From NCBI RefSeq assembly GCF_000743525.1, contig NZ_JQGK01000003.1, forward strand, positions 108,390 through 172,389: DNA of 64,000 nucleotides. The letters run 5' to 3'. The position numbers were made by a program, and so were the translations under genes. Positions 13,464-61,276 of the stretch are shown here, one piece after another; position 1 is the first letter of the stretch, and each line of letters starts with the position of its first letter. The DNA is from Sulfurospirillum sp. SCADC. GTDB taxonomy: Bacteria > Campylobacterota > Campylobacteria > Campylobacterales > Sulfurospirillaceae. A model generated the notes under the pieces. The model was not told the origin of the DNA. It was given only the letters and a program-made list of their open reading frames with translations, and ran no database searches.

Positions 13464-13475
13464 GATTTTATCTTT

Positions 13476-15680: not shown

Positions 15681-15687
15681 AAAAGTG

Positions 15688-24568: not shown

Positions 24569-24645
24569 GTCAAGGTAGCTCAGCTGGTTAGAGCGCTGGT
24601 CTCATAAGCCGGAGGTCGAGGGTTCGAGTCCCTCTCTTGACACCA
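24569..24645 (+). tRNA. tRNA-Met (CAU)
   Basis: A 77-base tRNA with encoded CCA. Acceptor stem GTCAAGG/TCTTGAC, anticodon loop CTCATAA (anticodon CAU), and T-arm GAGGG-TTCGAGT-CCCTC. Its 3' half is the attachment site of the integrated element that follows. A TATAAT lies at 24544-24549. Confidence 0.93.
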
Positions 24646-35158: not shown

Positions 35159-35529
35159 ATATAACCTTTTTATAGCGTTATTTAACATCTATATTATAGT
35201 TAAATATCTGTTATATAGCAATAAAAATAAACAACTATGTATATGTCATAAATTATGGCATTCATATATATTTTCTGATGACACATATCCGATAGTGTGA
35301 CAAATTCTTACATGTTATCTTCAAGTTATGTATCGACTAAAAGGTATTAAATGGCATTCTTTTTTACATTTTATGCTTCTTTGTAATAAAAAACTCTTGA
35401 TTTTTTCAGCCAAAGTAGTAGAATAAGTTTTACATTCAAAAACAAACTTCCAAAAACTTTTTGACTTCATTTTTTAAATCAAATGAAGAGCTCTATTCAA
35501 ACTGAATAGTCTCAAAAAGGAGTTTTTAC
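35159..35529. other. Intergenic region with repeats upstream of parA
   Basis: TTTAAC/GTTAAA inverted repeats upstream of parA (about 35178-35201) may be its operator or centromere. ATGTCATAAATTATGGCAT (about 35246-35264) is an imperfect palindrome. At 35339-35359 stands a copy of the box AAAGGTATTAAATGGCATTC, whose ATG opens only an 11-codon frame. Confidence 0.45.
35339..35359 (+). repeat. Start-box repeat AAAGGTATTAAATGGCATTC, copy 1
   Basis: Contains a ribosome site, an ATG and two further codons. Further copies: 37466-37486 (plus, real gene), 36994-37012 and 36897-36916 (minus), and a decayed one at 36875-36892 (minus). Confidence 0.7.
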
Positions 35530-44857: not shown

Positions 44858-44869
44858 AAAACGAATAGT
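44858..44869 (+). promoter_or_regulatory. AAAACGAATAGT box 1
   Basis: 28 bases before the tyrosine recombinase start. Other copies: 49838, 50599, 50975, 52723, 56968, 57718. Confidence 0.75.
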
Positions 44870-44897
44870 ATTAAATCTATTTATTTTGGAGCAAACT

Positions 44898-45536
44898 ATG
44901 ACATACGAACTTATCGAAGCAGAAATCATTGAGACGTTGCCTATCAAAAGAGGCAAACAGGAGATTGTACCTATTCAGCAAGACGATACTGAAGATGACA
45001 TCAAATACCTCTCAGTTACTGAGTTGAACACTTTACTATCTATCAGCGATTCATTCTACCGCTTAGCATGGCTTGTATGTTATGAAACGGCAAGCCGTAT
45101 TTCTGAAGCACTCAAACTCACATTTGGAGATCTCAATTTAGAGACCAATCGATTGAAAGTTATTAACCTCAAGCAGCGCAAGAAAAACAGCTTTCGCCTC
45201 ATTAAAATCAGTGACCGGCTTAAATCATTGATATTGCAAGAGCAACTCTCACGCAATGTCGCCAAAGATGACTTTATCCTCAAAAATCGTGATAGAACAA
45301 CTTACAACTATGCGTTTATTAGATATGCCACTCAAGCAAATATTGAAAGAGAGCGAGCGCATCCTCATACGTTACGCCACTCTCGTGCTATTCACCTTTT
45401 GGACTCAGGCGCTAATATCATTTTGGTCAGCAACGCTCTTGGTCATAAAAATATCAAGAGCACTTTGATCTATTTGAAGTATTCTAATCAGGAGTTGGAT
45501 AAGGCGCTAGATCATGCTAATGCACGATTGTATTAA
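44898..45536 (+). CDS. Compact tyrosine recombinase
   Basis: A 212-residue catalytic-domain-only tyrosine recombinase. [14 protein letters not shown] has the first arginine, [14 protein letters not shown] the HxxR pair, [10 protein letters not shown] the second histidine region, and STLIYLKYS the nucleophile tyrosine. The N-terminal core-binding domain of usual integrases is missing. It is preceded by an AAAACGAATAGT box like the conjugation genes, so it may act in transfer (some islands use a recombinase-like relaxase), in dimer resolution, or in inversion. ATG 44898 has GGAG six bases upstream. Confidence 0.75.
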
Positions 45537-45553
45537 CGTCTAGTTCTTGTATG

Positions 45554-45617
45554 TAAATCATTAAATAGTGATTTATATACCAGTTGTATCTATTTTATAT
45601 CATTATTTTGTGATATA
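45554..45617 (+). promoter_or_regulatory. Two HipB-type operators
   Basis: Two 22-bp inverted repeats, TAAATCA-N8-TGATTTA (45554-45575) and TATATCA-N8-TGATATA (45596-45617), 42 bp apart centre to centre, that is four helical turns. The second overlaps the likely -10 (GATATAATT). Confidence 0.75.
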
Positions 45618-45648
45618 ATTAATTCATCTTTTGTTGCAAAGGGATACA

Positions 45649-45984
45649 ATGGCATATACACTCTTAACGGACGATGAGATTGTCCATGATTTGGGGAAGA
45701 AGCTCGATACGCTTCGTCGAACTAAAGAAGTTCCTATTAGTGAGCTTTTAGAAAAAAGTGGTACCAACCATAATACCTATGATCGGTTTATCAATGCTAA
45801 AAGTGGCATTAGCCTCAAAAATTTCATTCGTCTTTTACGAGGGATTGGAGCATTGGATAAACTCGAAGCGCTTTTGGATGTTTCTCACGCTTATAGCCCT
45901 TTGCAAGAGCAGAGCATCCCTAAAAAACGCATACGAAAAAAACCTGCCTCTAACACAACCTTTACATGGGGAGAAGATCGATGA
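45649..45984 (+). CDS. hipB: HipB-like antitoxin
   Basis: A 111-residue helix-turn-helix protein (DLGKKLDTLRRTKEVPISEL, then SGTNHNTYDRFINAKSG). It has a basic C-terminal tail and overlaps hipA by four bases. As in HipB it should repress the operon through the two operators upstream and hold HipA inactive. ATG 45649 is chosen on AAAGGG. Confidence 0.8.
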   Translation: MAYTLLTDDEIVHDLGKKLDTLRRTKEVPISELLEKSGTNHNTYDRFINAKSGISLKNFIRLLRGIGALDKLEALLDVSHAYSPLQEQSIPKKRIRKKPASNTTFTWGEDR

Positions 45985-47294
45985 GTGGACGTGTAGAAGT
46001 TAAATTATGGGGTACGACCATTGGTTATTTAGGATACGCTCCAGGGCAAACAGAGATAGCAACGTTTGAGTACACAGAAGCATTTATGCGTTCAACGATT
46101 TATCCCTCTCCTTTAAGGATGCATTATCCTCCTAGTCGCTTTAGTTTTCCAGACATCAGCCTTCGAACCTTTAAAGGTATTGCAGGGATTTTTGCTGATT
46201 CATTACCTGATAAGTATGGTAATCAATTGATTGATATTTTCATGGCTGAAAAAAAGATAGCACCCGAATCTATCACTACGTTGGATCGCCTTTTATATGT
46301 CGGAACACGAGGCATGGGAGCATTGGAGTACCATCCATCAGAATTTGATGACTCGCCACAAGAATCTAACACTGTGTTAGATGTGCATCTTCTCTCAGAA
46401 CTTGCGCAGCTGGTTCTATCAAAGAAAGAAAGTTTACATGTAAACCTTCAAAAGGCGAAAACTAAAAAAGATGCGCTCAATCTGATTCGTGTGGGTTCAA
46501 GTGCAGGAGGGGCACGTGCTAAAGCGTTAGTGGCACGAGATACAAAAGGGAATTTTTACGATGGAACCATTGATCATGGCTCATCTTATTCATACTGGCT
46601 TTTAAAGTTTGATTCGGCTCAAAACAGTGATAGAGATGCTAAAGATCCTAAAGGTATGCCAAAAGTGGAGTACATTTATGCTCAATTGGCGAAGTCTTGC
46701 GGCATTGATATACCAGATGTAGATTATATACAAGATGGTGAAGATTTTCATTTCCTGATTAAACGTTTTGATCGAGATACAAGCACCTCAAAGCTTCAAA
46801 AAGTTCATTATGCTTCATGGAGCGGGCTTGCTCATGCCGATAGAGATGCTACGGGAGCTTATTCTTACGAACAACTTGTTTTAATGGCAAGGCAACTAGG
46901 CTTAGGTCAAGATGCTATCACCGAGTTGTACCGAAGAGCACTTTTTAATATCGTTGGTCGCAATCAAGATGATCACACGAAGAATTTTGGTTTTTTAATG
47001 GATAAAACAGGCTCTTGGAAGCTTGCACCAGCCTTTGATATGACCTATGCGTATGATCCAACAGGGAAGTGGACGAGAAGCCATCAAATCAAGCTATCAG
47101 GTAAACAGGAAGATTTTATTCGTGAAGATTTAATCAAATTTGGTGCGTATTGTAACCTCAGTGCCAAAAAAGCACAAACCATTCTTGATGAAGTGATCAG
47201 TGTTTTTCAAACCTTTGAAGCGAAAGCTAAAGTGTTAGATATTGCGCCACCGTTGAGGGAAACTATTTGCAATGCTTTGCGGCTGAAGTGGTAG
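45981..47294 (+). CDS. hipA: HipA-like serine/threonine kinase toxin
   Basis: A 437-residue HipA kinase. SSAGGARAKALV is the nucleotide-binding/autophosphorylation loop, FNIVGRNQDDHTKNFGFL the catalytic loop with its aspartate, and LAPAFDMTYA the metal-binding motif. HipA phosphorylates glutamyl-tRNA synthetase in E. coli, giving dormancy; the target here is unknown. The pair probably stabilises the element. All key residues are present. Confidence 0.88.
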   Translation: MSGRVEVKLWGTTIGYLGYAPGQTEIATFEYTEAFMRSTIYPSPLRMHYPPSRFSFPDISLRTFKGIAGIFADSLPDKYGNQLIDIFMAEKKIAPESITTLDRLLYVGTRGMGALEYHPSEFDDSPQESNTVLDVHLLSELAQLVLSKKESLHVNLQKAKTKKDALNLIRVGSSAGGARAKALVARDTKGNFYDGTIDHGSSYSYWLLKFDSAQNSDRDAKDPKGMPKVEYIYAQLAKSCGIDIPDVDYIQDGEDFHFLIKRFDRDTSTSKLQKVHYASWSGLAHADRDATGAYSYEQLVLMARQLGLGQDAITELYRRALFNIVGRNQDDHTKNFGFLMDKTGSWKLAPAFDMTYAYDPTGKWTRSHQIKLSGKQEDFIREDLIKFGAYCNLSAKKAQTILDEVISVFQTFEAKAKVLDIAPPLRETICNALRLKW

Positions 47295-47297
47295 CTA

Positions 47298-47486
47298 TTA
47301 TGCATTTTGGAAAGATTCTCCTTTGTGTATCTCACGTGTAATCTTTTGAAAAAAGGCTACCATGAAAAAAATAGAAGGTGGAAATATCGTTACTCCGTCT
47401 CTTTTTTTAAGAATGATAAAGTGTATCAGCCGAAGCACAATTCTAGGCATATGAAATTTTTCTAACCAGAGAAAAATTAATGTCAT
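47298..47486 (-). CDS. Possible 62-residue protein at the end of the AcrVA2-like operon
   Basis: Overlaps the upstream stop codon as ATGA, which favours coupling, but composition (long hydrophobic and basic runs) is not clearly protein-like and nothing is recognised. Confidence 0.3.
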   Translation of the reverse strand: MTLIFLWLEKFHMPRIVLRLIHFIILKKRDGVTIFPPSIFFMVAFFQKITREIHKGESFQNA

Positions 47487-48493
47487 TTAATTGTGTAAAC
47501 ATGAGTATTTGAATCTAGATCATAATCAATATTCTTCCAAAATGGTTTTATCCAAATTGTTTTAAACTGCTTTTCGACATTTCTTTGACCTATTGGCTGT
47601 CTTCGCCAATGTCCTCGAACTAAAGTCATTTTATTTTGTTTTGAGTTAGATGCTGAAGATGCACTTATCGTTTTAGCCTTAGAATCCTGATTATTAAGAA
47701 GAATATAGTGATAGGCTTTTAATCTTTTAGCGTTAAATTCGGTTGTTGAACTTTTTGCTGTTCTAAAGGCATATGGTTTCCATTCATTTATTTCACTAAT
47801 ACTTGATTTGAGTTCTCTTTGGGCGTGATCAAGATAAAATAGTGCAGAAAAAAGCTTCACGATTTGACTAACAAGACCCTTATCTTTTTCTTCTAAAAAT
47901 GATCTCGCGTTATTGTGAAAAAATTTTGAATACGTACTATCAAAAAAATCTTTTGCTATTCTTTCGATTTGATCTTGAATCGGAGTATTTTTGAAAATTG
48001 TAAAATAAATTAATGATGGCATATTGTTAGATTTATCGATTTCCATAGCATCGATCAATACCCAATCATTAAAGTTTTGAATTATCGCCCCTTCGATAAT
48101 ATGTTTTTGATCAGAAGCAAAATGGTATTCCAGATTAAGCTCAATGTAAAAAGTATTGAAAGGTAAATTCAAGTCATTCAATAACATATTGCCAATATCT
48201 GTATTAAAAATATCCTCTTTAAGTCTTTCATCAGCTATTTTAATGAACTTTTTACCATCGTTACATAAAATTGCGTAATTTGAAAAAAAGCGCATAAAGT
48301 CGTTTATTAAAAAATTGAAATCATAATCTTTTTTTACTCGTTCATTCAAATAGGCGATAAATCGCTTTTCATCTTCACCATCTATGGTTATTTCTGTTTG
48401 CTGTCCTCCTTTTATATGCGAAAAATACTTTTCTCTAATATCAGATGGCATTTTTTCGTACAAAAAACCTATTCTTTCCAAAGCATTATTCAT
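47483..48493 (-). CDS. AcrVA2-like family protein
   Basis: A 336-residue protein whose C-terminus carries LVRGHWRRQPIGQ followed by IWIKPFWKN. This RGHW...W.P pattern is the hallmark of a large mobile-element family that includes the anti-CRISPR AcrVA2 of Moraxella, though most members have no tested role. The N-terminal 250 residues are unassigned. It is the third gene of a minus-strand operon and overlaps the preceding one by eight bases. The start at 48493 has AGAGG upstream. Anti-CRISPR activity is not implied by sequence alone. Confidence 0.6.
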   Translation of the reverse strand: MNNALERIGFLYEKMPSDIREKYFSHIKGGQQTEITIDGEDEKRFIAYLNERVKKDYDFNFLINDFMRFFSNYAILCNDGKKFIKIADERLKEDIFNTDIGNMLLNDLNLPFNTFYIELNLEYHFASDQKHIIEGAIIQNFNDWVLIDAMEIDKSNNMPSLIYFTIFKNTPIQDQIERIAKDFFDSTYSKFFHNNARSFLEEKDKGLVSQIVKLFSALFYLDHAQRELKSSISEINEWKPYAFRTAKSSTTEFNAKRLKAYHYILLNNQDSKAKTISASSASNSKQNKMTLVRGHWRRQPIGQRNVEKQFKTIWIKPFWKNIDYDLDSNTHVYTIK

Positions 48494-49145
48494 TTTTTGA
48501 TACCTCTTTTGGTGCAATTATAGTAAGAATTGTTTTTTGTAATTCACTGTAGTTATGGGAGGGATAGAGGATTGGATCAATAAGTAGATATTGATTAGCA
48601 AGGAGGAATATCTCCCTATCATGTGAAATTTTTTCTTCGTAACTTTTAATCACAAAAGAAATCAAACGATTATATAGTGCTTCATCCTCTTTTTTTACAA
48701 AAGTTACAAGATCAGGTTGTTCATAAGCACGCATACCTAATAACTTTGAATGAATATCTGGGCAATGTTTTAATAAAATATTTGTAAATTCTAAAAAATC
48801 TTGTGCATATGAAAGATTATATTCTCTTGTGTCTGTAAATATACGTGATTGTAAAAAAGAAAATTCGCCTATTGGTAAAACTATATATCCTTTTTTATTC
48901 CAATAATTAATGAGTGCAACATAAATAGGTGGGAATTTTGGACTTAAAGTTTTTAATATTTCGAAAGCAAATGAATTTGTATTTCTACTATAAACATAAC
49001 TTCCATTTTGTGAATCACACAAGGTAATTCCATCATATAGTTTTTTATGTGGTCGAATATATTTGCTATCAAAGTTAAATACCCTAAAAAGTAGTGGAAT
49101 ATCGAATAGTTTATCCCAACAAATGTTACCTTCTATTGATAGCAT
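48486..49145 (-). CDS. Hypothetical protein
   Basis: 219 residues, soluble, aromatic-rich, starting MLSIEGNICWDKLFDIPLLF. It lies three bases after the DUF2513 gene and overlaps the AcrVA2-like gene, so it is the middle of a three-gene operon. Not recognised. Confidence 0.6.
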   Translation of the reverse strand: MLSIEGNICWDKLFDIPLLFRVFNFDSKYIRPHKKLYDGITLCDSQNGSYVYSRNTNSFAFEILKTLSPKFPPIYVALINYWNKKGYIVLPIGEFSFLQSRIFTDTREYNLSYAQDFLEFTNILLKHCPDIHSKLLGMRAYEQPDLVTFVKKEDEALYNRLISFVIKSYEEKISHDREIFLLANQYLLIDPILYPSHNYSELQKTILTIIAPKEVSKNE

Positions 49146-49148
49146 ATC

Positions 49149-49526
49149 TTATAAACCGAATTTTAACTTGAGATATGATTTACCAAGATCGATTAATAGT
49201 GAAATGGTAAAACCTCCTACAACAGAAGCTTTTTCTTTGACGTCCTTCCAAACTGTATCATTTCTTAAAATATCTAAAAAGTCATATCCTTTTGATGTAA
49301 TCCTAAATATCATGAATTCTCTCAAACCACTTAAGTCTTTGAGTGGCTTTGCCTCAATCAATTCATTTTCGAGTAGTTGATTTATGTGTTCAAGTAAGAC
49401 TTGGAATTCTTCATTGCTACTCTTGTCATATAACGATAGATCTCTCGCATTAATAATGGAATTCGGAACCAAGTGCTCTTCAAGATGAAGCATAATATTT
49501 CTAATAAGTTCTACATCTCTTTTCAT
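49149..49526 (-). CDS. DUF2513-like protein
   Basis: 125 residues with the DUF2513 start MKRDVELIRNIMLHLEEHL and its later block ITSKGYDFLDILRNDTVWKDVKE. The fold is probably a winged helix, so it may regulate the operon it begins. The family is widespread in phages and islands. Confidence 0.75.
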   Translation of the reverse strand: MKRDVELIRNIMLHLEEHLVPNSIINARDLSLYDKSSNEEFQVLLEHINQLLENELIEAKPLKDLSGLREFMIFRITSKGYDFLDILRNDTVWKDVKEKASVVGGFTISLLIDLGKSYLKLKFGL

Positions 49527-50105
49527 AGACGCCCTTTATAGTATTTTATAAAATTATATCTAATAAAGAAAAGTAAAAATTACAAAATAATTTTCCGAAT
49601 AATAGTCCACTTGCCTTGCAAATAAGCAAGTCATTTAAAGTCGCATACGAACAATCAAATTCAGACGATTCTTGCTCTAGGAATAAACTCCCGATCACCT
49701 CAGCTAAAACATAACCATTTTCCTTTTCTCAATCACCGTTACTTTCAAATTCAGATTTAGTCGAATGGCGGTTTTAGAACGTAAAAATCACTCTTGAAAA
49801 GTAAATCCTCCTCATTTTTTAAAAACACCTCCAAAATAAAACGAATAGTCATATACACCAAAATTACAAGGAGTTTTTATGACTATTTACTTCACCACTT
49901 TCTAAACCATCCAAGAGCAAAAAAGCACCAAACAAGGTTACTAGTTTGGTATGTATACGTAGAACGTAAATGTTTAGAAGGTTACGATCTGCTTTTTAGG
50001 TGACCAGTTATCAGGTATTACATTAAAAGGTTACAGCAAAAAACACCTCAATATCACTAGTTACGAGGTATTACGTTAAAGGGGTACAACCCGAAAGGAG
50101 AAATC
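49527..50105. other. Intergenic region with box 2, a mini-frame and direct repeats
   Basis: AAAACGAATAGT at 49838-49849 is followed 29 bases later by AAGGAG and an eight-codon frame (49879-49905), perhaps a leader or a gene remnant. Two 23-bp direct repeats follow at 50013 and 50066. A motif TCTAGGAATAAACTCC (49677-49691) has a near copy at 63931. Confidence 0.5.
50013..50088 (+). repeat. Direct repeats upstream of the 164-residue gene
   Basis: AGGTATTAC-A/G-TTAAA then GGTTACA or GGGTACA, at 50013-50035 and 50066-50088. They end 17 bases before the next start codon and could bind a regulator. Confidence 0.65.
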
Positions 50106-50600
50106 ATGAAGGACCATATAAAACCATTCGAAGAATTTGATCAAAGCGAGGAATATCCAGTAGCAGAAAAAACAGACAAGCACATGCTCACAATCATTCG
50201 AGGTACGATCAAAAAAGAGCTCATAAAACGTCTTGAGAACCAAAGTGAGATGTTTCCCTTCCGCAATAAAATTACCTTGCATTATGTGAATTACTACATC
50301 ATCAAAAAATGCTTTCTTGATGCTCCACAAGCTGTCAAAGATTCAATTTTGTCTAATGCAAGATCAATCCATCGAAAAGAGATACGCCGTATTCAAAAGG
50401 CACTGCGCACCATTGAATCCAATGTCATGAATGAATTACCCAATGAGCTTGAGAAACGACTGCTCAAAAAAATTATCTTGTACATCTCCTACCTGTGGCT
50501 CAAAAAAGAGTTTTACATCTCAAAAGAAGAGATCAGACGCTTTGTTTTTGGCTTTAGCATCTTTTATCCTGAGCTAAAACCAAAAAGTACCCCAAAATAA
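50106..50600 (+). CDS. Hypothetical protein
   Basis: 164 residues, helical and basic, with the repeated patterns IKKELIKRLENQ and EIRRIQKALRTIES. It starts the tra block and its TAA stop is part of the next AAAACGAATAGT box (box 3). Not recognised; a DNA-binding or regulatory role is possible. Confidence 0.6.
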   Translation: MKDHIKPFEEFDQSEEYPVAEKTDKHMLTIIRGTIKKELIKRLENQSEMFPFRNKITLHYVNYYIIKKCFLDAPQAVKDSILSNARSIHRKEIRRIQKALRTIESNVMNELPNELEKRLLKKIILYISYLWLKKEFYISKEEIRRFVFGFSIFYPELKPKSTPK

Positions 50601-50610
50601 AACGAATAGT
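50599..50610 (+). promoter_or_regulatory. AAAACGAATAGT box 3
   Basis: 42 bases before the start at 50653; followed by CATAACAGAAAGAAATTTCT, shared with box 4. Confidence 0.75.
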
Positions 50611-50652
50611 CATAACAGAAAGAAATTTCTGAAAAAAACAAAGGAGTTACCC

Positions 50653-50934
50653 ATGAATCAACAACAAGAGGAGCAATTATTTGCGGAAATACTATCGGAA
50701 GAAAATATTGCATTGTATCAAGCAACGGAGAGTGTAAAGGATATCGATCAATTTTGCATGAAGCTAGAAAAAGAGTTTCCGCAATTTTTCTTTATTGGTG
50801 CACCAAGCGATGACAATGCGGTGATTAATATGTACGATAAATCAAAGTTGAGAATTAAACGAAGAAAGACATTGCTTGAGCGCGCGATACTTTCTCAAAT
50901 TGAGCCTAATTTTGTCATTGATTTTGAGCAGTAG
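50653..50934 (+). CDS. Hypothetical protein
   Basis: 93 residues, acidic, starting MNQQQEEQLFAEILSEENIA, with a good AAAGGAG. A hairpin GGAGAGA/TCTCTCC follows (50948-50968), just before box 4. Not recognised. Confidence 0.55.
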   Translation: MNQQQEEQLFAEILSEENIALYQATESVKDIDQFCMKLEKEFPQFFFIGAPSDDNAVINMYDKSKLRIKRRKTLLERAILSQIEPNFVIDFEQ

Positions 50935-50974
50935 CCAAATAAAAGTTAGGAGAGACTCAAAATCTCTCCCAAAA

Positions 50975-50986
50975 AAAACGAATAGT
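50975..50986 (+). promoter_or_regulatory. AAAACGAATAGT box 4
   Basis: 42 bases before traH. Box plus the following 20 bases equals box 3 and its flank. Confidence 0.75.
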
Positions 50987-51028
50987 CATAACAGAAAGAA
51001 ATTTCTGGAATTCTTATGAGGAGTTGTT

Positions 51029-52618
51029 ATGAGTCAAGCATTTTTAAATGGCATTTTTTCTCAAGAAAATATGCGGAGAATAATCTCTGTATTTTGTACG
51101 ATTACTTTATTGTCTCAATTACATGCAAGTACAGGATTGGATGATATTTTAAGCTCATCAAGCAATGGTTTTGATTTTGCTGGTACGTCTAGTCTTAAAA
51201 CGCAAACAAGAGGTTACTATAATTTTGGTGGTATGTCAGTTAGGACAGATATTGGTGGCGCAATTAGACCATTTAATATTCAGATGCCGACTATTGCTTC
51301 TGGTTGCGGTGGAGTAGACATAGGCTTTGGTGGATTTAGCTTTTTGAATATTGATCAATTAGTTGAAAAACTTCAAAAGATTGCTAGTGCCGCACCAGCT
51401 TTTGCATTTAATATGGCACTTTCTGCACTATGCAAGGACTGTCAATCCATCATGGATCAATTAAATGCTGTAGCTGATTCAATCAATGGTTTAAACTTCG
51501 ATGCATGTAAATCAGCAGTTGGTTGGGGCAAAACTGTGGGCGGTGCTTTAAATAATGCTCTTAAGACCAAAGATGATGCAAAATCTGGTATTGAAGGTGT
51601 TTTAGGTAATTTGCCAGGAGCAATTACATCAGCAGCTGACAATATGCAAGCATTTATTAACTGTGGTTCTACAAGTGGGGAATGTACAGATACTTCATCT
51701 GATGCCGCTAAACAAAAAGCCTTGGAAGCACTTAAATTTCAAGGATCACTTATACATAAAGTCTTTACTGACAACCAAAGTTTTCTGAGTGCAATAACGG
51801 ATGGCAGTGACTCTACAAGTTCATATTCCTATTGGTTTAAAGGCTTGTCACAACAAGATGCAGAGGATCTTTTTAGAAATATGATAGGTGATTTTTATGG
51901 ATTTGTAGATCCAACATCATGTGGAGGGACTGGCACGGAAGGAGAGCCAACCGCTTATATGGTTGCAACAATATTGCCATTAATGAGTGCTGATGAGGCA
52001 ATCAATGTATTTTTGGGTGACACAAGTGGTGGAGACCAAAAACTCAAGGGGCTGTCTGTAAGCGATAGCGAGAAGATATGTAAAGATCACTATGGTCCAC
52101 CAATAATTGCATCAACGCAAAGAGTCTTAAGCAGTACGATGAACGCTTCTACTATAAGAAAAACTGTTGCTGATCGGCTTACCGATATCCTTGGCAATAT
52201 GGCGACTTCAAACAGTAATGCTCTAAAAACTGATGCAAAATTCCTTTCAAATATAAGGTATCCAGTATACAAAGCACTCAATGTCGCATCAATAACGAAT
52301 GATCAGCTTTTGATAGGGTACATTGCTGATGTAATCGTGGCACAAGAATTGGTAGGACTTGTGAATGAGCTTGCAAGTAAACAAAGAGCTTTTACCAACT
52401 ACGGGACCATTACAAAATCAACAGTAAATATTCAACCGGCACATATCAAAGCAATTGAGGATAGGGTAGTTTTGATTAACCAAAAAGCTGAAGCAGTTAA
52501 AAATACCGTAATGAGAAATATGGAGAGTAGAGTTGCTCAAATTTCTGTTCTCGATGATGTAACAAAGCGCTACAAACAAGAGCTTACAAAAAAAGGAATG
52601 TATCGTCTTGGGCACTAA
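51029..52618 (+). CDS. traH: F-type conjugation protein TraH homologue
   Basis: A 529-residue secreted protein with a signal-like helix at about 15-35 (IISVFCTITLLSQLHAS). The TraH core is clear: TIASGCGGVDIGFGGFSFLN with its conserved cysteine/glycine cluster, then CKDCQSIMDQLNAVADSING, and FMVATILP-like later blocks. In the F system TraH is a periplasmic/outer-membrane component of pilus assembly and mating-pair stabilisation, acting with TraG. The rest of the F-type apparatus is not encoded here. Confidence 0.88.
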   Translation: MSQAFLNGIFSQENMRRIISVFCTITLLSQLHASTGLDDILSSSSNGFDFAGTSSLKTQTRGYYNFGGMSVRTDIGGAIRPFNIQMPTIASGCGGVDIGFGGFSFLNIDQLVEKLQKIASAAPAFAFNMALSALCKDCQSIMDQLNAVADSINGLNFDACKSAVGWGKTVGGALNNALKTKDDAKSGIEGVLGNLPGAITSAADNMQAFINCGSTSGECTDTSSDAAKQKALEALKFQGSLIHKVFTDNQSFLSAITDGSDSTSSYSYWFKGLSQQDAEDLFRNMIGDFYGFVDPTSCGGTGTEGEPTAYMVATILPLMSADEAINVFLGDTSGGDQKLKGLSVSDSEKICKDHYGPPIIASTQRVLSSTMNASTIRKTVADRLTDILGNMATSNSNALKTDAKFLSNIRYPVYKALNVASITNDQLLIGYIADVIVAQELVGLVNELASKQRAFTNYGTITKSTVNIQPAHIKAIEDRVVLINQKAEAVKNTVMRNMESRVAQISVLDDVTKRYKQELTKKGMYRLGH

Positions 52619-52722
52619 AAGCTTTTTATTTTGTGTTTAGGGCTGTCTTTTGTCGTATTTCTTAACCATACGATGATCGAGTTATCACTAGAATTGGGAG
52701 ATTTTCAAATCTCTTTCCATTT

Positions 52723-52734
52723 AAAACGAATAGT
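52723..52734 (+). promoter_or_regulatory. AAAACGAATAGT box 5
   Basis: 32 bases before the start at 52767; preceded by a GAGAT/ATCTC hairpin (52698-52714). Confidence 0.72.
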
Positions 52735-52766
52735 AATGTAAATTAAAAATACACGAGGAGATAATT

Positions 52767-53213
52767 ATGAACTCAACACACAGTCTAGCACTTGAGCAAA
52801 GTGCTTCAAATGAAAATTACTTTGGGCTTTTTGTCACAATAGGCTTATTTGTAATCATGCTTTTAATGATGAATTTTATTTTTTCACTCATTCTAGAAAG
52901 TTATTGTTGGATCAAGCACAAACGAAAAGGAGAAGCTTATACTGTTCGTTTCCCAAATCCCGTAACTGCGATTAAAAACCGTTTTATTCGCGCAAAAAAT
53001 TGGCTTAGTCATAAAATTAAGCAAATTCAAACAGCCGTGCAAGCAGTTAAAGATATTCAAATTCTCATTATTGAGACATCAGGAAATGAGCAATTAAAAC
53101 ATGCTTTTATAGCGTATACATTCATTGTGGCACTGACTGCAACAACGGCATATAATTTTTTGGGATTAGCCTTTAAGTATGACTTTATAGCCATTTTCAA
53201 GCAACTTTTTTAG
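52767..53213 (+). CDS. Hypothetical membrane protein between traH and traG
   Basis: 148 residues with helices at about 24-47 and 118-140 and a basic cytoplasmic middle. It precedes traG by nine bases. It may be a minor transfer component; no family recognised. Confidence 0.55.
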   Translation: MNSTHSLALEQSASNENYFGLFVTIGLFVIMLLMMNFIFSLILESYCWIKHKRKGEAYTVRFPNPVTAIKNRFIRAKNWLSHKIKQIQTAVQAVKDIQILIIETSGNEQLKHAFIAYTFIVALTATTAYNFLGLAFKYDFIAIFKQLF

Positions 53214-53222
53214 GTCGTCGTG

Positions 53223-56039
53223 ATGAAAAAAATACTTTTTATCTTAACAATACTGTCATACAGCGTGTTGTTTGGCGCGGATAACTCAGATATCATTTGG
53301 ACCTGGGGCAATGGAAGAAACATTGCCTCTATTCTCTCATTTTTGTATTTCTTACTCAACATCGATACATTAGCGATTATTATCAAATATGCTGGGTTGA
53401 TTGGTATGGCAGTTGTTTTCATAAGGGAGCTTGCAAAAGGTGTTGGTTATCAGCCCGGAGCTGCTGCCATCAAAATGCTCTTCTTTATCATTGTATCACA
53501 AATTACCATTTATGGGTTTCTAAGTGTTAAAAGAGATGATGCACACCATGTCTATATCTTATCAGCCAATGAACTTTCTGCCGCATCATGGCAAAAGTGT
53601 CGTCCTGTTAGCGGAGATAATGAATGTTATGCTCCCATTGGTGTTAAACTTCTAATGACATATGCCACAAATTTTGAGAGAGCAGGTATTGGCATGATGG
53701 AAAGTTCTATGATGGATGCTAATGCTATGACCTATTCATTCTCTCGCATGGGCTTGGGATTTGGCTTTACCTTCTACGATCATATCTCCAAAACAAAAGG
53801 TGATCCATACACTTACAACACCTTTATGGAGTTTTATGAAAACTGTATCATCTATGATCTAGCTGATGGCACAAAAAGTGTCGATGGTATCTATAAGAGC
53901 AGAGATCTTGCTTCATACATTTTAAGCCCCAATGCAAGGCTTACAAACGTCTACTCAGCCTCGAACCCTAATGGAACCCTCAAAACGTGTTATGAGGTCT
54001 CTAGCGCTTCGCTATGGGGTAATATTAATTGTAATAAAACTGCAAATCAACTTCACGCAAAAGCTAGTGGATCTGCTGCCTCTGAAGCGACTACAGATGA
54101 CATTTGTTTAGCCGCTGAAAACTTCGGTCAATTAATGTTCAATAGCACCAAAGATGCTTCTGCTCAAATTGAACAACGAACCATTATGAATCTTACCAAT
54201 GAATCCATCGTTAATAGTGCCATTGCAAGTGGTATTGATCCTAATGTATTGGCATATGGCACGACTATGGCAGATCGAGAGCAAAGAGGCAAATTTATGG
54301 TTCTAGGTGTGATGGCTAAAGAGTGGATTCCTTCTATGAGAGGAATGATGCAAGGTATTGCACTTGGACTCATTTGGGTGTTAGCAATTCTTAGCATTAT
54401 GACGGCCTCTCCAGCTCCTTATCTTGGGTCCGTGGTAGGATTCCAAGTCACATTGATTGTTTGGTCATTTATCCTTGCTTTAATAAACTTTATGACGATA
54501 GATCAAATGGCAGAATCATTGCCAAATATCTTCTTTTCAGACTTAGGAGCAGGAGATCAAATGACACTGTGGTCCCAACCAACGTTTGATGAAGAAAATC
54601 AAAAGGCACTTGCATTTTTAGGCTATATGGGATTTGCAAGTTATGGGATTGCTGCTAGTTTGGTTTATATTGGAGGGAACAAACTGGCTTCTTCTTTCAG
54701 TGGTGCCGTTGGTCAACTCTCTGTTGGTATGGGAACATCTGCCAATATGGCTAAAGGGCATTTTGATCATGGCATGGATAAATCGGATTCTAGTGGTACT
54801 CAACACCATAATGTGAGAACCGGTGATCTTGATCGATGGAATCCGGATGGTTCAACATCAAGAGACAACCTAAATGGTATGAACACCAGTAAGAAAGTGG
54901 ATAGCACAGGAACACTAGAGACTTCAACATCAATCAATGGCAAAGAGACAACGCAAATTGATACTACTGGCGGAAATTCTGCAAAGTATGATGGCCAAAA
55001 TGTTACAGGTACTAAATTGGGATCTGGTACTACTGGTCAACTTCAGTCACAGGTTATTGCCTCCGCATCAAAGGAAGCAGCGAAAGCTAGGTCTGATGTA
55101 GAAACAGCCGAGCATAATCTTCAAAATGCAACCCAAAGCCAACATCAAGTTGCTACGGATGCTATAACAGCTGCATCAAAAGCAGAAGGTACTGACGCTT
55201 CGATAACAGAACAAAAAGCAGTTAAAGAAGCTTTACAACATACATTAAACCAAATGGAAAAAGAAGGCAAAATAACTTCCGCGCAAAGAGCAGAACTATA
55301 TCAGCAAATTAGCAAAGATGCTATTTCAGCTGGCGCTACTATCGATAGCAGTAAGAGTGCTTTGGGAAAAGTAGTTGCAGGAGCAACTGGCATAAGTGTT
55401 GGCGGTGGTTATCAACATGAATGGTCCGACCAAAAAAGTTCACAAGAACAACTTCAACAAGCAAAAAATCTTGAGAAATCGTTTGCTGAATCATTTTCAA
55501 AAAATTATAGTGAAGAATCTTCAAAAGTAGTGTCCAATTCATCTAAACTTGACGCTACACTCAAACAAGACTTTACTACCAAAATAAATGATTCATTTGC
55601 ATCAACGCAATCTGCAAGTGATTCATATAAACACGCTCAACAAGTTTCAGATACTGCAACCAAAAAGGAGACCTACGTTAAACAAAATTCAGCTACTGTT
55701 GCTGAAGATATGGCAACAAAATATCTTCAAAATGTTGCAGATAATGCAGGTAGCGGTGAAGCAGGTAAGGTAGCAGTAAGGTCAGAGTTGAATAAACTTG
55801 AAAGTTCAAGATATACTCAAGATGCTTTTTCAACTTATGCTGATTCTATTAAAGATACAACGAATGTTGATACAAAAATCAATGATACTCAGGCTGTAAT
55901 AGATCATAAAAAATCAGAATTAGCACCTGTGAAGCAACAAGATCATCAAGAAAATCAAAACCAAGTTATTGAACAACACTGGTTGAATGAGGGAGAAATA
56001 AAAAGTCAAAATCATAAAAATAAACCAGTCGAACGGTAA
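53223..56039 (+). CDS. traG: F-type conjugation protein TraG homologue
   Basis: A 938-residue protein. Signal peptide at the start, TraG N-terminal domain (PF07916) over about residues 10-460 with several membrane helices (ALGLIWVLAILSIM, VTLIVWSFILALINF), then a polar, Gln/Ser/Lys-rich C-terminus with long coiled-coil stretches, as in F TraG. F TraG assembles pili, stabilises mating pairs and confers entry-exclusion specificity through its C-terminus. GTG 53220 is also possible. A hairpin terminator follows. Confidence 0.87.
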   Translation: MKKILFILTILSYSVLFGADNSDIIWTWGNGRNIASILSFLYFLLNIDTLAIIIKYAGLIGMAVVFIRELAKGVGYQPGAAAIKMLFFIIVSQITIYGFLSVKRDDAHHVYILSANELSAASWQKCRPVSGDNECYAPIGVKLLMTYATNFERAGIGMMESSMMDANAMTYSFSRMGLGFGFTFYDHISKTKGDPYTYNTFMEFYENCIIYDLADGTKSVDGIYKSRDLASYILSPNARLTNVYSASNPNGTLKTCYEVSSASLWGNINCNKTANQLHAKASGSAASEATTDDICLAAENFGQLMFNSTKDASAQIEQRTIMNLTNESIVNSAIASGIDPNVLAYGTTMADREQRGKFMVLGVMAKEWIPSMRGMMQGIALGLIWVLAILSIMTASPAPYLGSVVGFQVTLIVWSFILALINFMTIDQMAESLPNIFFSDLGAGDQMTLWSQPTFDEENQKALAFLGYMGFASYGIAASLVYIGGNKLASSFSGAVGQLSVGMGTSANMAKGHFDHGMDKSDSSGTQHHNVRTGDLDRWNPDGSTSRDNLNGMNTSKKVDSTGTLETSTSINGKETTQIDTTGGNSAKYDGQNVTGTKLGSGTTGQLQSQVIASASKEAAKARSDVETAEHNLQNATQSQHQVATDAITAASKAEGTDASITEQKAVKEALQHTLNQMEKEGKITSAQRAELYQQISKDAISAGATIDSSKSALGKVVAGATGISVGGGYQHEWSDQKSSQEQLQQAKNLEKSFAESFSKNYSEESSKVVSNSSKLDATLKQDFTTKINDSFASTQSASDSYKHAQQVSDTATKKETYVKQNSATVAEDMATKYLQNVADNAGSGEAGKVAVRSELNKLESSRYTQDAFSTYADSIKDTTNVDTKINDTQAVIDHKKSELAPVKQQDHQENQNQVIEQHWLNEGEIKSQNHKNKPVER

Positions 56040-56047
56040 ACAAAATT

Positions 56048-56070
56048 GAAGAGGGATTTATTTCCTCTTC
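56048..56070. terminator. Terminator between traG and the PIN gene
   Basis: GAAGAGG / CCTCTTC stem with a 9-base loop, between convergent genes. Confidence 0.65.
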
Positions 56071-56079
56071 GCCTTCGTA

Positions 56080-56883
56080 TTAACTCAATTTTAAATCTGA
56101 AGCACCATGATTGATATTACCATAGTGTGAACTATAGATTGGGTCTGTTGTATAGTCACTTATTTTCCCAAAGTCATTAGATGCTTCACTATTAATTCCT
56201 TTTGCTTCTTTGAAAAAATCTGCGAGTGATTGCTTTTTCATTTTTGCATAAAGAAAATTCATTAACACTGTCATTGAAACAAGCAAAGCCAAGTATGATA
56301 GAACAAGGACAATATTTGATGGACTAAATTTAATTCCAAGGAATCCTAAAAATAATGGCGAAAAAAAAGATAGCACATAAAATGGCGAAAGAACCATTAA
56401 AGCTGTTTTGTATTGATTTTTTGTTTCTTTTTCCTGCGCTACTTTTAAAGTTTCCACGTTAACCCCTTCGCTCATCGCTCTAACTCTTTGTGCCATATCA
56501 AGTGTGACCAATGTCATATTATAATCTTTAGCAACTTCAATAATCTTGGAATCGTTAATATTTTTAGTTTTATAAAACTTGCGAACAATTACATGTAAAG
56601 GAGTATTGCCTAAAGTCATTTTTCTTAGAGTATCACCTTGTTCCAATGGCATATTAGACAAAGGCATTGCATGTAACTCAACACCATTGCTATTACCAAG
56701 TCTCCTAAAAAACTCCCTTGCTTGAAAAGCGACAGATCCATTTGCATTGTTCTTATGACCATCTAGCTCTTGCAACACAATATCTGTGACGAATACTGGA
56801 GCTATCTTTTCAAGTTTAGCGATGATTGCCTCACCACCCTCTACTACAATTGATGTGTCGATTAAAATTCTTTGTGTGTCCAT
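56080..56883 (-). CDS. PIN-domain protein with C-terminal membrane helices
   Basis: 267 residues. The PIN domain (about 1-145) shows RILIDTSIVVEGG, FVTDIVLQELDGH, NDSKIIEVAKDY and LVTLDMAQRVRA, giving the acidic metal ligands of an RNase. Two membrane helices follow (about 163-213), then a short tail. A membrane-tethered PIN RNase is unusual. No antitoxin gene adjoins it, so it does not look like VapC; it could be an RNA-cleaving defence or maintenance factor. Confidence 0.7.
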   Translation of the reverse strand: MDTQRILIDTSIVVEGGEAIIAKLEKIAPVFVTDIVLQELDGHKNNANGSVAFQAREFFRRLGNSNGVELHAMPLSNMPLEQGDTLRKMTLGNTPLHVIVRKFYKTKNINDSKIIEVAKDYNMTLVTLDMAQRVRAMSEGVNVETLKVAQEKETKNQYKTALMVLSPFYVLSFFSPLFLGFLGIKFSPSNIVLVLSYLALLVSMTVLMNFLYAKMKKQSLADFFKEAKGINSEASNDFGKISDYTTDPIYSSHYGNINHGASDLKLS

Positions 56884-56967
56884 ATCTAATCCTATTATTT
56901 TCGTATACAGTATTTTTACACGTATTTGAATTTAATTCAAGAGTTTTTTGGATTTTGACCCCAAAAT

Positions 56968-56979
56968 AAAACGAATAGT
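56968..56979 (+). promoter_or_regulatory. AAAACGAATAGT box 6
   Basis: 30 bases before the start at 57010; flanked by CCAAAAT as in boxes 2 and 3. Confidence 0.75.
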
Positions 56980-57009
56980 CTATATAAACAAAAAAACAAG
57001 GAGTTTCAT

Positions 57010-57162
57010 ATGGACAATTCAACAACAATCAACCAGGTGGCTTTTTACAAAAGCTTTTTCGCAAATATGAGTGATGAGGATTTTCAATCTGTTTCTAAAG
57101 ATGAGATTGTGCAAATGTTTGAAAAGCTCGAAGCTGAATTCAAAAAAGAGAGGGAGAAGTAA
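57010..57162 (+). CDS. Small acidic protein, 50 residues
   Basis: MDNSTTINQVAFYKSFFANM then a charged helix ending EFKKEREK. AAGGAG upstream, and its TAA overlaps the next ATG by one base. Not recognised. Confidence 0.6.
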   Translation: MDNSTTINQVAFYKSFFANMSDEDFQSVSKDEIVQMFEKLEAEFKKEREK

Positions 57163-57719
57163 TGCATAGCGACAGAGATGCTTTGAAAAACATTGCTGAA
57201 AAAAAGTATTTTGAACTTTTACAATATTTTGAAAATGATCGAAGTATCGCTAAAGCCTTAACTCCACATTATGGACGTTCTAACAGCGTCTTAAAACGGA
57301 ATTTAGGCCTCTTTTCTTTTAGGAACCAGAAATCAACTCAAGATTTCATAGATGCTGCTAATGTTGTATTGGCAAAGATTAAAGTTCAAGAAATCAATGC
57401 TACAGCGCTTCTTTTTATAGGGTTCGACATGAGCCCTATTGTTTTAGTAGAACAAGCAAAGAAGCTTATTGACTTGGGTATTAACGTGATTGCACCACAA
57501 GCTATTATTGAAAATACACATGAGCAATTTTGGGAATATGTTAAAGCAGATATAGCATTATCTGACTTTATTGTGATATATGAGGTAAATGACGTAGAAA
57601 ATACTTTGCTACAAGATACGGCAAAGGATAAAGAGATCATTGATATACAAGATATTAATGATCTTAAAGCATATGCAAGAAGAGTTACTTTGAAAAAATG
57701 CAAATCTCGCGTGAAATAA
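57162..57719 (+). CDS. Hypothetical protein
   Basis: 185 residues. The N-terminal 65 residues are helical and basic and might bind DNA (ALTPHYGRSNSVLKRNLG); the rest has an alpha/beta pattern (LLFIGFDMSPIVLVEQAKKL). Coupled to the preceding gene by a TAATG overlap. Its stop codon lies within box 7. Not recognised. Confidence 0.55.
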   Translation: MHSDRDALKNIAEKKYFELLQYFENDRSIAKALTPHYGRSNSVLKRNLGLFSFRNQKSTQDFIDAANVVLAKIKVQEINATALLFIGFDMSPIVLVEQAKKLIDLGINVIAPQAIIENTHEQFWEYVKADIALSDFIVIYEVNDVENTLLQDTAKDKEIIDIQDINDLKAYARRVTLKKCKSRVK

Positions 57720-57729
57720 AACGAATAGT
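57718..57729 (+). promoter_or_regulatory. AAAACGAATAGT box 7
   Basis: 27 bases before the start at 57757. Confidence 0.72.
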
Positions 57730-57756: not shown

Positions 57757-57957
57757 ATGGAAAGCATTACTGATGTTAAAAAGGCAAAAAAAAGAAAAGC
57801 TAGTGTATTTGAAAACCATAAAAAAGAAATTTTACAGCTCTTGCAATTAAAAATAAGCATACCAGCAGTTTACAAAATTATTGAACCAAAACTCGTAGAA
57901 AAGAGGAATCCAAAATCCCTATATATGTATTTAAAAAGAAACTTACTTGTTGAATGA
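57757..57957 (+). CDS. Small basic protein
   Basis: 66 residues, lysine-rich, with KKEILQLLQLKISIPAVYKI suggesting a helix-turn-helix of the kind seen in short mobilization or plasmid proteins. Overlaps the convergent repressor gene by 15 bases. DNA binding is inferred. Confidence 0.5.
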   Translation: MESITDVKKAKKRKASVFENHKKEILQLLQLKISIPAVYKIIEPKLVEKRNPKSLYMYLKRNLLVE

Positions 57958-58365
57958 ATCTAAAAAATTAGCAAGTTGGTCTAGAAGGTTTTGGAAGTTA
58001 TCATCGTTATTTTTATTGTCATTAAAAGTTTTTGCAAGTTTTTTAATTACCGTACTAGTATCTTTTTTAAATTTTTTATCAACTTTGAACTCAACAAAAA
58101 TTGAAGTAGGTGGTTCATGTGGCATAGTAACTATTGGAATGAGTATAGGTTCAATCCCTGTAAGGATATATGCATAATTAATACCTGCATATTTAAGTTG
58201 CTCAAGCACATTAAATGAAGGAACTCTATCCCCACTTTCATATCTTGATATTGTTGCTTTTGTAACCTTCAAGGCATTGGCCAAGCCTTGCTGGCTAATG
58301 CCTGCTTCATTTCTCGCTTTTTTTAATCGCTCTGCAATCTCATTTTTTTTACTCACTTCTAACAT
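57943..58365 (-). CDS. XRE-family (CI-like) repressor
   Basis: 140 residues with an N-terminal Cro/C1 helix-turn-helix (IAERLKKARNEAGISQQGLA, then VTKATISRYESGDRVPS) and a helical C-terminus likely for dimerization; no LexA-type protease domain is visible. It is divergent from the replication/integration operon, and palindromic operators lie between. It probably silences excision and replication. The start at 58365 is chosen on its AAGGA. Confidence 0.8.
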   Translation of the reverse strand: MLEVSKKNEIAERLKKARNEAGISQQGLANALKVTKATISRYESGDRVPSFNVLEQLKYAGINYAYILTGIEPILIPIVTMPHEPPTSIFVEFKVDKKFKKDTSTVIKKLAKTFNDNKNNDDNFQNLLDQLANFLDSFNK

Positions 58366-58406
58366 GATGAAATTGTCCTTTTTAAGCTTCAATTAACAAG
58401 GAAACA

Positions 58407-58443: not shown

Positions 58444-59058
58444 ATGAGTTTAGCCGGCCCTGTTAATCTCCTTAACCCTGTGGTTAAGGAAAATTTTAAC
58501 ATAAAGTTATTAAAAAAACATTCTGTTTCGCAAGTGAAACAAGAAAATATTCTGCAAAAGCTAGCTTTTATGTCAACATTTGAAGAAATTTCAGATTGGG
58601 TTTCAACCCACTCAAATGGTCAAAAATACATCGCAAATCCTATTAGTGCAGGGGATGCCGATCGACTTGACTGCCTTTTTGCAATACAAGAACCGCTTGC
58701 TTTGGCTTTAAAACCACTCGAAAATCGTCGAAAGAATGGACGTGATATACGCCTTTTGGAGGCCACTGAAACAGATAATTACGCTGTAATTGCTGATATT
58801 CTTGCCAGTACCGCTTGGAGTTATTGGCAAAATCACAATTTTCAAACTTCCCAAGATGTCCGCGTCAACATTAGCGTAGTTTGCCAATTCCAAAACGATG
58901 AAAATATTCAACAAAAAAAAGAATTCAAAAAAGCTCAGATAGAGCATATTGGTGCAATTGTTGACTTTTGCAAAGCCAATAAAAAGGGTGCATTCCAAGA
59001 GTGTTTGGATTTTAAGGAAACCGAAGAAATTCTTGGAATTAATGATTTTGAGGATTAA
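58444..59058 (+). CDS. Hypothetical protein, first gene of the replication/integration operon
   Basis: 204 residues, soluble, no recognised domain; NGQKYIANPISAGDADRLDC and NRRKNGRDIRLLEATETDN are polar stretches. Two bases separate it from the next gene. It is under the repressor's operators and may be an activator or replication accessory. Confidence 0.55.
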   Translation: MSLAGPVNLLNPVVKENFNIKLLKKHSVSQVKQENILQKLAFMSTFEEISDWVSTHSNGQKYIANPISAGDADRLDCLFAIQEPLALALKPLENRRKNGRDIRLLEATETDNYAVIADILASTAWSYWQNHNFQTSQDVRVNISVVCQFQNDENIQQKKEFKKAQIEHIGAIVDFCKANKKGAFQECLDFKETEEILGINDFED

Positions 59059-59060: not shown

Positions 59061-59819
59061 ATGAGCATTAAAATTATGTCGCTTGTCTGGGAGCTATCGC
59101 GAATTAATGCTGAAATTAATAGAGATGATAAATTTTTGCTTCTTGCTCTTGCTGACCATGCTAATGATGATGGTGAATGTTATCCAAGCTTATCTAAAAT
59201 CCAAAAAAAATGCTTCTTTTCAAAACAAGGGCTCTTGAATAGCATGGACCGAGTCATTAAAATTGGTTATGTCTCTAAAAGCAAAAGAAAACGAGAAAAT
59301 GGTAGTAATACATCAAATTTATATCAATTGCACGAAGACCTTTTTAGCTTTAAAATTGAAGAAGCAAAACTACTAGAAGATATGAAAAAATTTAAAAATA
59401 CTAGCACTACACAGGTAGTCAATGCTGTTGACAAGGGTAGTCTACCAGATGGACTAGGGGTAGTCAACGCCATAGACAAGGGTAGTCTACATGGTAGACA
59501 AGTATATGAACCATCAATTAACCATCATTATGAATCTTCATTTAACCTCTCTCTAGAGAGAGTTGATTTTAAAACTTTCAAAAAGCGTCTCATTACGTTT
59601 TGCCCTGGTTATATGTTTAAACTCAGAGAGTTTTGTGGACAAAAATTAATTGATACTCATGCAGGTTTTTGCTTTCAAAACGGCTACATATTCAACTTAC
59701 ATACTCAAAAGCTTTTAGATAAAGAAGAAAGTTTTGGTGTATGGCAATATCTTTATGAGAAAAGAATTCAAGTTTTTGAACAAGCACAAATTCAAAATCA
59801 TCAAAAGAGTGCGTCATGA
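59061..59819 (+). CDS. HTH replication-initiator-like protein with internal iterons
   Basis: 252 residues. The N-terminal ~95 form an HTH_36-type winged helix (FLLLALADHANDDGECYPSL and the following helix), common in phage and plasmid replication proteins. Residues around 119-150 are a 15-residue tandem repeat (VVNAVDKGSL, then VVNAIDKGSL), reflecting DNA direct repeats that look like iterons. The C-terminus is unassigned. It overlaps the next gene by four bases. Origin binding is inferred. Confidence 0.65.
   Translation: MSIKIMSLVWELSRINAEINRDDKFLLLALADHANDDGECYPSLSKIQKKCFFSKQGLLNSMDRVIKIGYVSKSKRKRENGSNTSNLYQLHEDLFSFKIEEAKLLEDMKKFKNTSTTQVVNAVDKGSLPDGLGVVNAIDKGSLHGRQVYEPSINHHYESSFNLSLERVDFKTFKKRLITFCPGYMFKLREFCGQKLIDTHAGFCFQNGYIFNLHTQKLLDKEESFGVWQYLYEKRIQVFEQAQIQNHQKSAS
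59415..59490 (+). repeat. Two 31-bp direct repeats inside the replication-like gene
   Basis: Copies at 59415-59445 and 59460-59490, 45 bp apart, 27 of 31 bases identical, both beginning GTAGTCAA and ending GACAAGGGTAGTCTAC. Further GTAG/CTAC half-sites flank them (59407, 59493). Iterons within an initiator gene mark replication origins in lambdoid phages. Confidence 0.7.
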
Positions 59820-60061
59820 GCAGTGAAGAGTTTTTTGAATTAAAAAATCTATTATTGGAGCAAAGGGCACTCCTTAATATACTAATTCCAGATGATGTAC
59901 CGCTTTCATTCATTTGTGATCGTACTGGAAAATCACGTCAAGCAATACGAGATTATCTTCATTACAATTATAAAGAAAAGAAAGATTTTTACCTCAAAAA
60001 AGGTAAAATCTATGTTGCAAAAGAAGCCGCTATTCAAATTTTGCAAAGGAGCAAAATATGA
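59816..60061 (+). CDS. Excisionase-like small HTH protein
   Basis: 81 residues; LSFICDRTGKSRQAIRDYLH is a helix-turn-helix of MerR/excisionase type and the C-terminus FYLKKGKIYVAKEAAIQIL is the usual wing. Overlaps both neighbours by four bases. Directly before the integrase, so an Xis role is likely. Confidence 0.65.
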   Translation: MSSEEFFELKNLLLEQRALLNILIPDDVPLSFICDRTGKSRQAIRDYLHYNYKEKKDFYLKKGKIYVAKEAAIQILQRSKI

Positions 60062-61223: not shown

Positions 61224-61276
61224 CTCATAAGCCGGAGGTCGGGGGTTCGAGTCCCCCTCTTGACACCACTCCTAAA
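61224..61276 (+). other. attR: 53-bp copy of the tRNA-Met 3' half
   Basis: From CTCATAA through CCA to CTCCTAAA, with two compensating changes in the T-stem (GGGGG/CCCCC instead of GAGGG/CCCTC). No acceptor 5' half precedes it, so it is not a tRNA gene. Confidence 0.88.

Follow-up and report, generated by a model that had tools for sequence, protein, structure and literature searches.

A sharply bounded 12-bp box before genes of two Sulfurospirillum island families: a possible core promoter element read by an island-carried factor

The late system of phage T4 (gp55, gp33, sliding clamp) uses promoters that are described as one short, nearly invariant element without a conserved -35, placed before many genes (PMC2988020). 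In the SGI1/AcaCD regulon of IncC plasmids, the genes of an island answer to AcaCD from its helper, according to the reports on this system (PMC5389848, PMC5058578). The sigma70 promoters of C. jejuni and H. pylori are reported to have no -35 and a gnTAnaAT -10 that ends 4-8 nt before the transcription start (PMC3847290). Here, we analyzed a stretch of 64,000 nt from Sulfurospirillum sp. SCADC (contig NZ_JQGK01000003.1, forward-strand positions 108,390 to 172,389; hereafter the window), in which the exact 12-mer AAAACGAATAGT (hereafter the box) recurs upstream of genes of a predicted mobile DNA element. With a probability of roughly one half, we read the box as a core promoter element at the -10 position that RNA polymerase would open only with a dedicated, island-carried factor.

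The locus resembles the T4 late system in that a short, near-invariant element, with no conserved -35, recurs ahead of many genes in a single mobile genome. It differs in sequence and in size (12 bp versus the 8-bp TATA box of T4), and is predicted from sequence alone. No relative of gp55, gp33 or the clamp was recognized among the window proteins scanned with Pfam, PHROGs and NCBIfam, profiles that could miss one. The likeness to SGI1 consists of an integrated island, traG and traH apparently without the rest of a type IV secretion system (T4SS), one common box, and a tyrosine-recombinase-like gene that may be compared with MpsA (PMC6414798). However, the AcaCD sites of SGI1 differ in sequence and are described as ending at the -35 position (PMC5058578), whereas the box would lie at -10 or below. 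Matches to the AcaCD core motif GCCCAAAATGGGC were at chance level (15 versus 13.5 expected at up to 3 mismatches), with none before a boxed gene, and SGI1 is reported to integrate at trmE (PMC8409611), whereas the island analyzed here lies at tRNA-Met. The sigma70 promoters of Campylobacterota also lack a -35 (PMC3847290), but have gnTAnaAT where the sites described here have the invariant CGAATAGT. Because the AcaCD motif stays at chance level and no T4-type factor was recognized, the box and its island are filed as a member of neither the T4 late system nor the SGI1 family.

All eight box sites in the window, seven exact and one variant, are inside a single island of about 36.6 kb that extends from tRNA-Met to a repeat of the tRNA-Met end. 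The sites are as follows:

35499..35510, plus strand: box 8, variant AAACTGAATAGT, 8 nt from its end to GGAG and 19 nt to ATG 35530, where an operon starts; the counterpart in both relatives (S. multivorans and S. halorespirans) reads AAACCGAATAGT
44858..44869, plus strand: box 1, exact, upstream of the small tyrosine recombinase gene, with an inverted second half-site 8 bp downstream
49838..49849, plus strand: box 2, exact, upstream of an 8-codon open reading frame (ORF) at 49879 and a 164-aa gene at 50106
50599..50610, plus strand: box 3, exact, overlapping the stop codon of the 164-aa gene, upstream of a 93-aa gene
50975..50986, plus strand: box 4, exact, upstream of traH
52723..52734, plus strand: box 5, exact, upstream of a 148-aa gene that is followed by traG
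56968..56979, plus strand: box 6, exact, upstream of a 50-aa and a 185-aa gene
57718..57729, plus strand: box 7, exact, overlapping the stop codon of the 185-aa gene, upstream of a 66-aa gene

The original prediction had noted seven identical 12-mers, all on the plus strand, 27-42 nt before an ATG and absent elsewhere in the window, two of them containing the stop codon of the preceding gene; all of this was confirmed. The gaps from the end of the box to the ATG are 28, 29, 42, 42, 32, 30 and 27 nt for boxes 1 to 7, with GGAG in between at each of these seven sites, and the distance from box to start ranges from 19 to 56 nt over all sites. By chance, about 0.008-0.013 exact copies per strand are expected in 64 kb. 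A motif scan of the whole genome (2.66 Mb, 38 contigs), which had been proposed as a check, gave 7 forward and 0 reverse copies, thus none in the rest of the genome, and 4 for the reversed control pattern. At up to 2 mismatches, the window contained 20 matches compared to a shuffle mean of 12.1, a number reached by 2 of 100 shuffles and only mildly above chance. One-mismatch copies in the genome numbered 17, fewer than the 46 control matches.

Other structures were observed next to the boxes. Between 49879 and 50105, the 8-codon ORF and a leader of about 200 nt with a repeated GTATTAC(A/G)TTAAA precede the 164-aa gene, and this segment is alignable in three islands. In each of the three islands, hairpins of the GAGAT/ATCTC type immediately precede some boxes (50949-50969 and 52696-52715 in the window); of two such hairpins folded, one was more stable than shuffles.

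The same island type is present in S. multivorans (G007) and S. halorespirans (G019), and the tyrosine recombinase was found at E<=1e-30 in only 3 of 398 genomes of the order, namely these two and the window's genome (G000). In a wider set of contigs, relatives were recorded on at least 50 for the recombinase, at 80% identity or more, and on 81 for the 204-aa protein of the early operon. Most of the boxed window genes have orthologs in both relatives; a traH ortholog was found in neither island and a traG ortholog was not found in G019. S. multivorans carries eight box sites, and its island is split over two places with near-identical insertion sequence (IS) copies (99.8-100%) at the break. 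Its boxes 6 and 7 lie approximately 460 kb from the main island, if the single contig is circular, and adjoin IS copies almost identical to one that the main island carries. The G007 genome also contains an F-type conjugation gene cluster with TraH and TraU at about 1.692-1.712 Mb (L063-L066); no exact or one-mismatch box precedes any start in this cluster, and a nearby exact copy (1684310) is inside an open frame. A public differential RNA sequencing set of S. multivorans is GSE139083 (PMC7755780). What we read as a PceA-like frame in G007 begins 128 nt after the pceAB start site published at 1491183. In coordinates checked against this published site, transcription from the eight S. multivorans boxes would be predicted to start on the minus strand at about 399412-399414, 399899-399901, 400653-400655, 402358-402360, 408802-408804, 3114986-3114988, 3115736-3115738 and 1538988-1538990.

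Comparison of the sites revealed that conservation has sharp edges at 12 bp. Across 27 distinct contexts, over the span from -15 to +23 relative to the box, the 12 box positions carried 1.05-2.46 bits each and no outside position exceeded 0.88 bits. The best flanking positions were a C-rich tract at -6 and -7 (0.88 and 0.72 bits) and the first base after the box (0.66 bits). For the recombinase gene, the upstream DNA was at null identity in all three island pairs, with 12 of 12 box positions identical and leaders 96-100% identical. The 66-aa gene showed the same pattern in two of three pairs (box 12/12, leader 86-89%). For the 148-aa/TraG gene, the window and G007 have identical boxes, with 38% identity in the 8 bp before the box and 56% in the leader. 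The remaining gene groups are uninformative about the edges, since their upstream DNA is conserved as well.

Plain counts of the 12-mer were made in 24 Sulfurospirillum genomes and in one genome of another family (G055). The 47 exact copies in the genus compare with 50 for the reversed control pattern. Since the raw copy number is no higher than that of the control, the signal is the position of the copies and not their count. Thirty of the 47 copies belong to two island families, and 29 of these 30 are directly upstream of a ribosome site and start. None of the 17 copies outside the islands has this position, and 15 of them fall within open frames at least about 200 codons long.

The second family consists of elements, here called class 2, with an exact box before a 168-aa gene and before a 175-178-aa gene. 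Four genomes (G008, G014, G015 and G023) have two such boxes each, 561-562 bp apart, and in G015 an insertion separates the second box from its gene. A further copy, with one box and also a CI-type repressor, is present in G007, G014, G016, G019 and G023. The class-2 sites were missed in wide scans of 60 and 398 genomes, which required GGAG within 30 nt of the box, and were found later via the 178-aa protein, which is identical in four genomes and, at 98% identity, in two pieces in G007. In G007 and G019, the one-box copy adjoins the tetrachloroethene-respiration region: a small island remnant (L190 in G007; L191 in G019, 11178-16049) lies near tRNA-Leu, about 7-8 kb from that region, and contains an integrase and a CI-type repressor along with its single box. 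By BLASTP (E<=1e-4), none of the boxed class-2 genes is related to a boxed window gene. Common to both families are relatives of a 204-aa window protein (32-47% identity, G008 and G023) and integrase relatives; the G015 locus also has relatives of the ParA-like and 85-aa genes of the window (85-92%). The suggestion that traH, the gene before traG, the recombinase gene and others form one regulon fits these data, with a wider reach than first noted, into a second island family of the genus.

The position and sequence of the box both bear on its function. At 35499, no separate -10 fits in the 8 nt before GGAG, which places the box either at -10 or inside the transcript. Since a divergent gene precedes four of the eight window boxes, initiation must be near. 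A hidden upstream promoter is less likely because the recombinase gene has three unrelated upstream sequences. The absence of a common -35, used earlier as an argument, was reproduced in that neither a TTGACA nor a TATAAT was common to the 12 sites tested; the argument is weak, since a missing -35 is ordinary in the phylum, as described for C. jejuni and H. pylori (PMC3847290). All 34 sites contain AATAGT, which does not match the gnTAnaAT of Campylobacterota sigma70: T is replaced by A and A by G in 34 of 34 sites, while the A at the second -10 position and the T at the last one are kept. AATAGT would thus be a poor match for ordinary sigma70, and because it deviates at two positions in every site, a dedicated factor is expected. 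The earlier preference for a core promoter or leader element over an activator site is consistent with these results, and between the two we prefer a core promoter of the -10 type, with transcription probably starting about 7 nt downstream of the box.

Principal genes and the two ends of the island are listed here:

24569..24645, plus strand: tRNA-Met, left island end
44898..45536, plus strand: tyrosine recombinase, 212 aa, catalytic domain only (Pfam PF00589, E 4e-26)
50106..50600, plus strand: 164-aa protein, predicted all-helical, no family
51029..52618, plus strand: traH (PF06122, E 2.7e-50)
53220..56039, plus strand: traG, TraG_N (PF07916, E 1.1e-40)
57162..57719, plus strand: 185-aa protein, no family
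57943..58392, minus strand: CI/Cro-type repressor gene, divergent from the box-free early operon (PF01381, E 1.8e-12)
58444..59058, plus strand: 204-aa protein, first gene of the early operon
59061..59819, plus strand: replication initiation O-like protein (phrog_8540, E 1.8e-20)
60058..61146, plus strand: integrase adjoining the right island end (PF00589, E 3e-19)
61224..61276, plus strand: 53-nt repeat of the tRNA-Met 3' part (96%), right island end

The island also encodes a ParA-like protein, a weakly NikA-like protein and cargo such as HipA. Boxes precede traH, the small recombinase gene and the 148-aa gene before traG, among others, and are lacking at the repressor, replication, integrase and cargo genes. 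No relaxase family was found among 40 proteins scanned with Pfam (39 in the island; small ORFs only partly scanned). TraU was not found in the window's genome and TraH nowhere else in it (other T4SS families were not searched genome-wide).

In the mechanism that we propose, the CI-type repressor would hold the early operon; upon its release, the 204-aa early protein would be made and would switch on the boxed genes. The 204-aa protein is a candidate only, although the best one, for the factor that reads the box. The original prediction proposed a search for an element- or plasmid-borne sigma factor or activator that co-occurs with the box: a sigma-like protein was not recovered among the window proteins scanned, while the 204-aa family is present in 6 of the 8 genomes in which a box precedes a start and absent from the other 16 (Fisher p 2e-4). 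The model of this protein is mediocre (pLDDT 69) and matched no solved fold at E<=0.001, and no known fold or DNA-binding domain was recognized in it. More speculatively, and as a doubtful extension, the island families might share a private promoter language, with a strict 12-bp -10 element and a new island-encoded specificity factor (the 204-aa family) that acts in a T4-late-like manner in integrated mobilizable islands and lets the factor of one island activate the genes of another.

Several observations weigh against a -10 element with an island-carried factor. The co-occurrence of the 204-aa family and the box is partly linkage, because both are on the same elements. G014 and G016 have boxes and no match to the 204-aa protein, the match in G015 is at another locus than the box, and the matches in G015 and G008 have in-frame stops in the matched span. 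No sigma-like protein was identified among the window proteins in the profile scans; the 50-aa protein has a match to an RNA polymerase beta PHROG at E 0.12, taken as chance, and neither of the modelled proteins has a Foldseek match at E<=0.001. For the 148-aa/TraG gene, the -50 to -8 segment is 74% alike between the window and G007 compared to a null of 57%, with a similar hairpin, and is thus not unrelated. Single sites do have sigma70-like hexamers: a complete TATAAT precedes box 1 by 24 nt, and four other sites have 5-of-6 matches nearby. A short inverted repeat was seen by eye right after the box in some class-2 leaders; if this repeat acts as RNA, the start would be nearer the box than assumed. 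Finally, the box of the recombinase gene is accompanied by a second, inverted arm that resembles a recombinase core site, a feature for which our reading does not account.

The strongest competitor, which we regard as a possible but clearly less probable explanation, is that the box acts as RNA, in the 5' leader or in an intercistronic stretch, where a protein, small RNA or nuclease would bind it, with the promoters upstream. In all cases the box precedes the ribosome site, and in two it overlaps a stop codon within a gene cluster; a strict 12-nt motif suits an RNA target, and the TATAAT before box 1 could serve as such a promoter. However, the DNA upstream of the recombinase gene is unrelated in three islands, which leaves no common upstream promoter. 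Nor was there a full-length complementary partner, with G-U pairs allowed, in the searched stretches of the three islands, the boxes themselves apart. A gene for a PIN-domain protein adjoins box 6, in line with this explanation, but no match to it was found in the G019 island, where boxes are present. Nor was the hairpin that follows boxes 3 and 4 more stable than shuffles, in folded stretches that began one base inside the stem.

It is unlikely that the box is an upstream activator site, similar to the AcaCD sites, with an ordinary sigma70 -10 downstream. The presence of traG and traH without the rest of the T4SS recalls SGI1, and a 5-of-6 TATAAT match is found downstream of two window boxes (56968 and 57718). 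Yet the 8 nt between box and GGAG at 35499 make such a site improbable, and both the chance-level AcaCD motif and the -35 position at which the SGI1 sites end point away from it.

Even less likely is a half-site of the small tyrosine recombinase for the swapping of gene modules. In three islands, homology at the recombinase gene is lost within about 10 bp of the box, and an inverted second arm is located 8 bp away (AAAACgAATAG-8 bp-CTATTtGTTTT in the relatives, 44858-44887 in the window). Of the 11 bases of this arm, 10 are present in two islands and 9 in the window; among 2000 shuffles, 3, 3 and 20 did as well. Against this, two inverted arms with a 6-8 bp spacer, as in a tyrosine recombinase core site, were found at 3 of 15 sites, all three at the recombinase gene, and the other 12 have at most 6 of 11 second-arm bases. 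The window boxes also have the same orientation and similar distances before starts, and G008 and G014 have boxes but no recombinase relative at E<=1e-30. Least probable of all is that the host reads the box with a regulator or sigma factor encoded on its chromosome. This idea draws on the box being common to two island families, but the lack of an exact copy outside the island in G000 and one-mismatch copies below the control level speak against it.

A helper element with the same box was not found. In the PLSDB plasmids, a 51-nt query of box plus leader gave only 6 weak partial matches. In IMG/VR, the box plus AGGAG matched 91 stretches; 20 of the 80 loci examined have the box before an ORF of at least 30 codons, a bias favored by the search pattern, and these matches were taken as chance as none has two separate boxed genes (L095 has a tandem copy). 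In the GTDB contigs, a pattern of the box with a preceding AAAAT and with GGAG no more than 30 nt away, in a search that may leave out near relatives of the window, gave 12 single matches in unrelated taxa, also taken as chance. The one match with a ribosome site in G055 was dropped as chance; it overlaps a gene end in what appears, in our own reading without a family scan, to be a nif-type cluster.

Two further features of the window were recorded. A noncoding stretch at 41838-41961 contains two inverted repeats of the TTCAACAAAAT..ATTTTGTTGAA type, is kept in all three islands, where it precedes the recombinase box by 1.2-2.9 kb, and is possibly an oriT or a cargo boundary. The palindrome TTTACATGTAAA occurs in the window at 2615, 8815, 10450, 13425, 13452, 15665, 17138, 21039, 22400 and 46433, with a single copy in the island, in hipA. 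There are 657 copies in the window's genome, 14-792 per genome in 15 genomes of the same genus (the window's included) and 0-1 in 9 genomes from outside the genus. It appears to be a repeated palindrome specific to the genus, comparable to HIP1 of cyanobacteria; a literature search for the string returned matches on other subjects only.

Sulfurospirillum is a genus known for dechlorinating tetrachloroethene. The 12-bp string is a simple handle for finding islands of this type, and the 204-aa family provides a candidate transcription factor without recognized relatives of known function. If our reading is true, the shared switch would mean that different islands are turned on together, via one factor or one helper.

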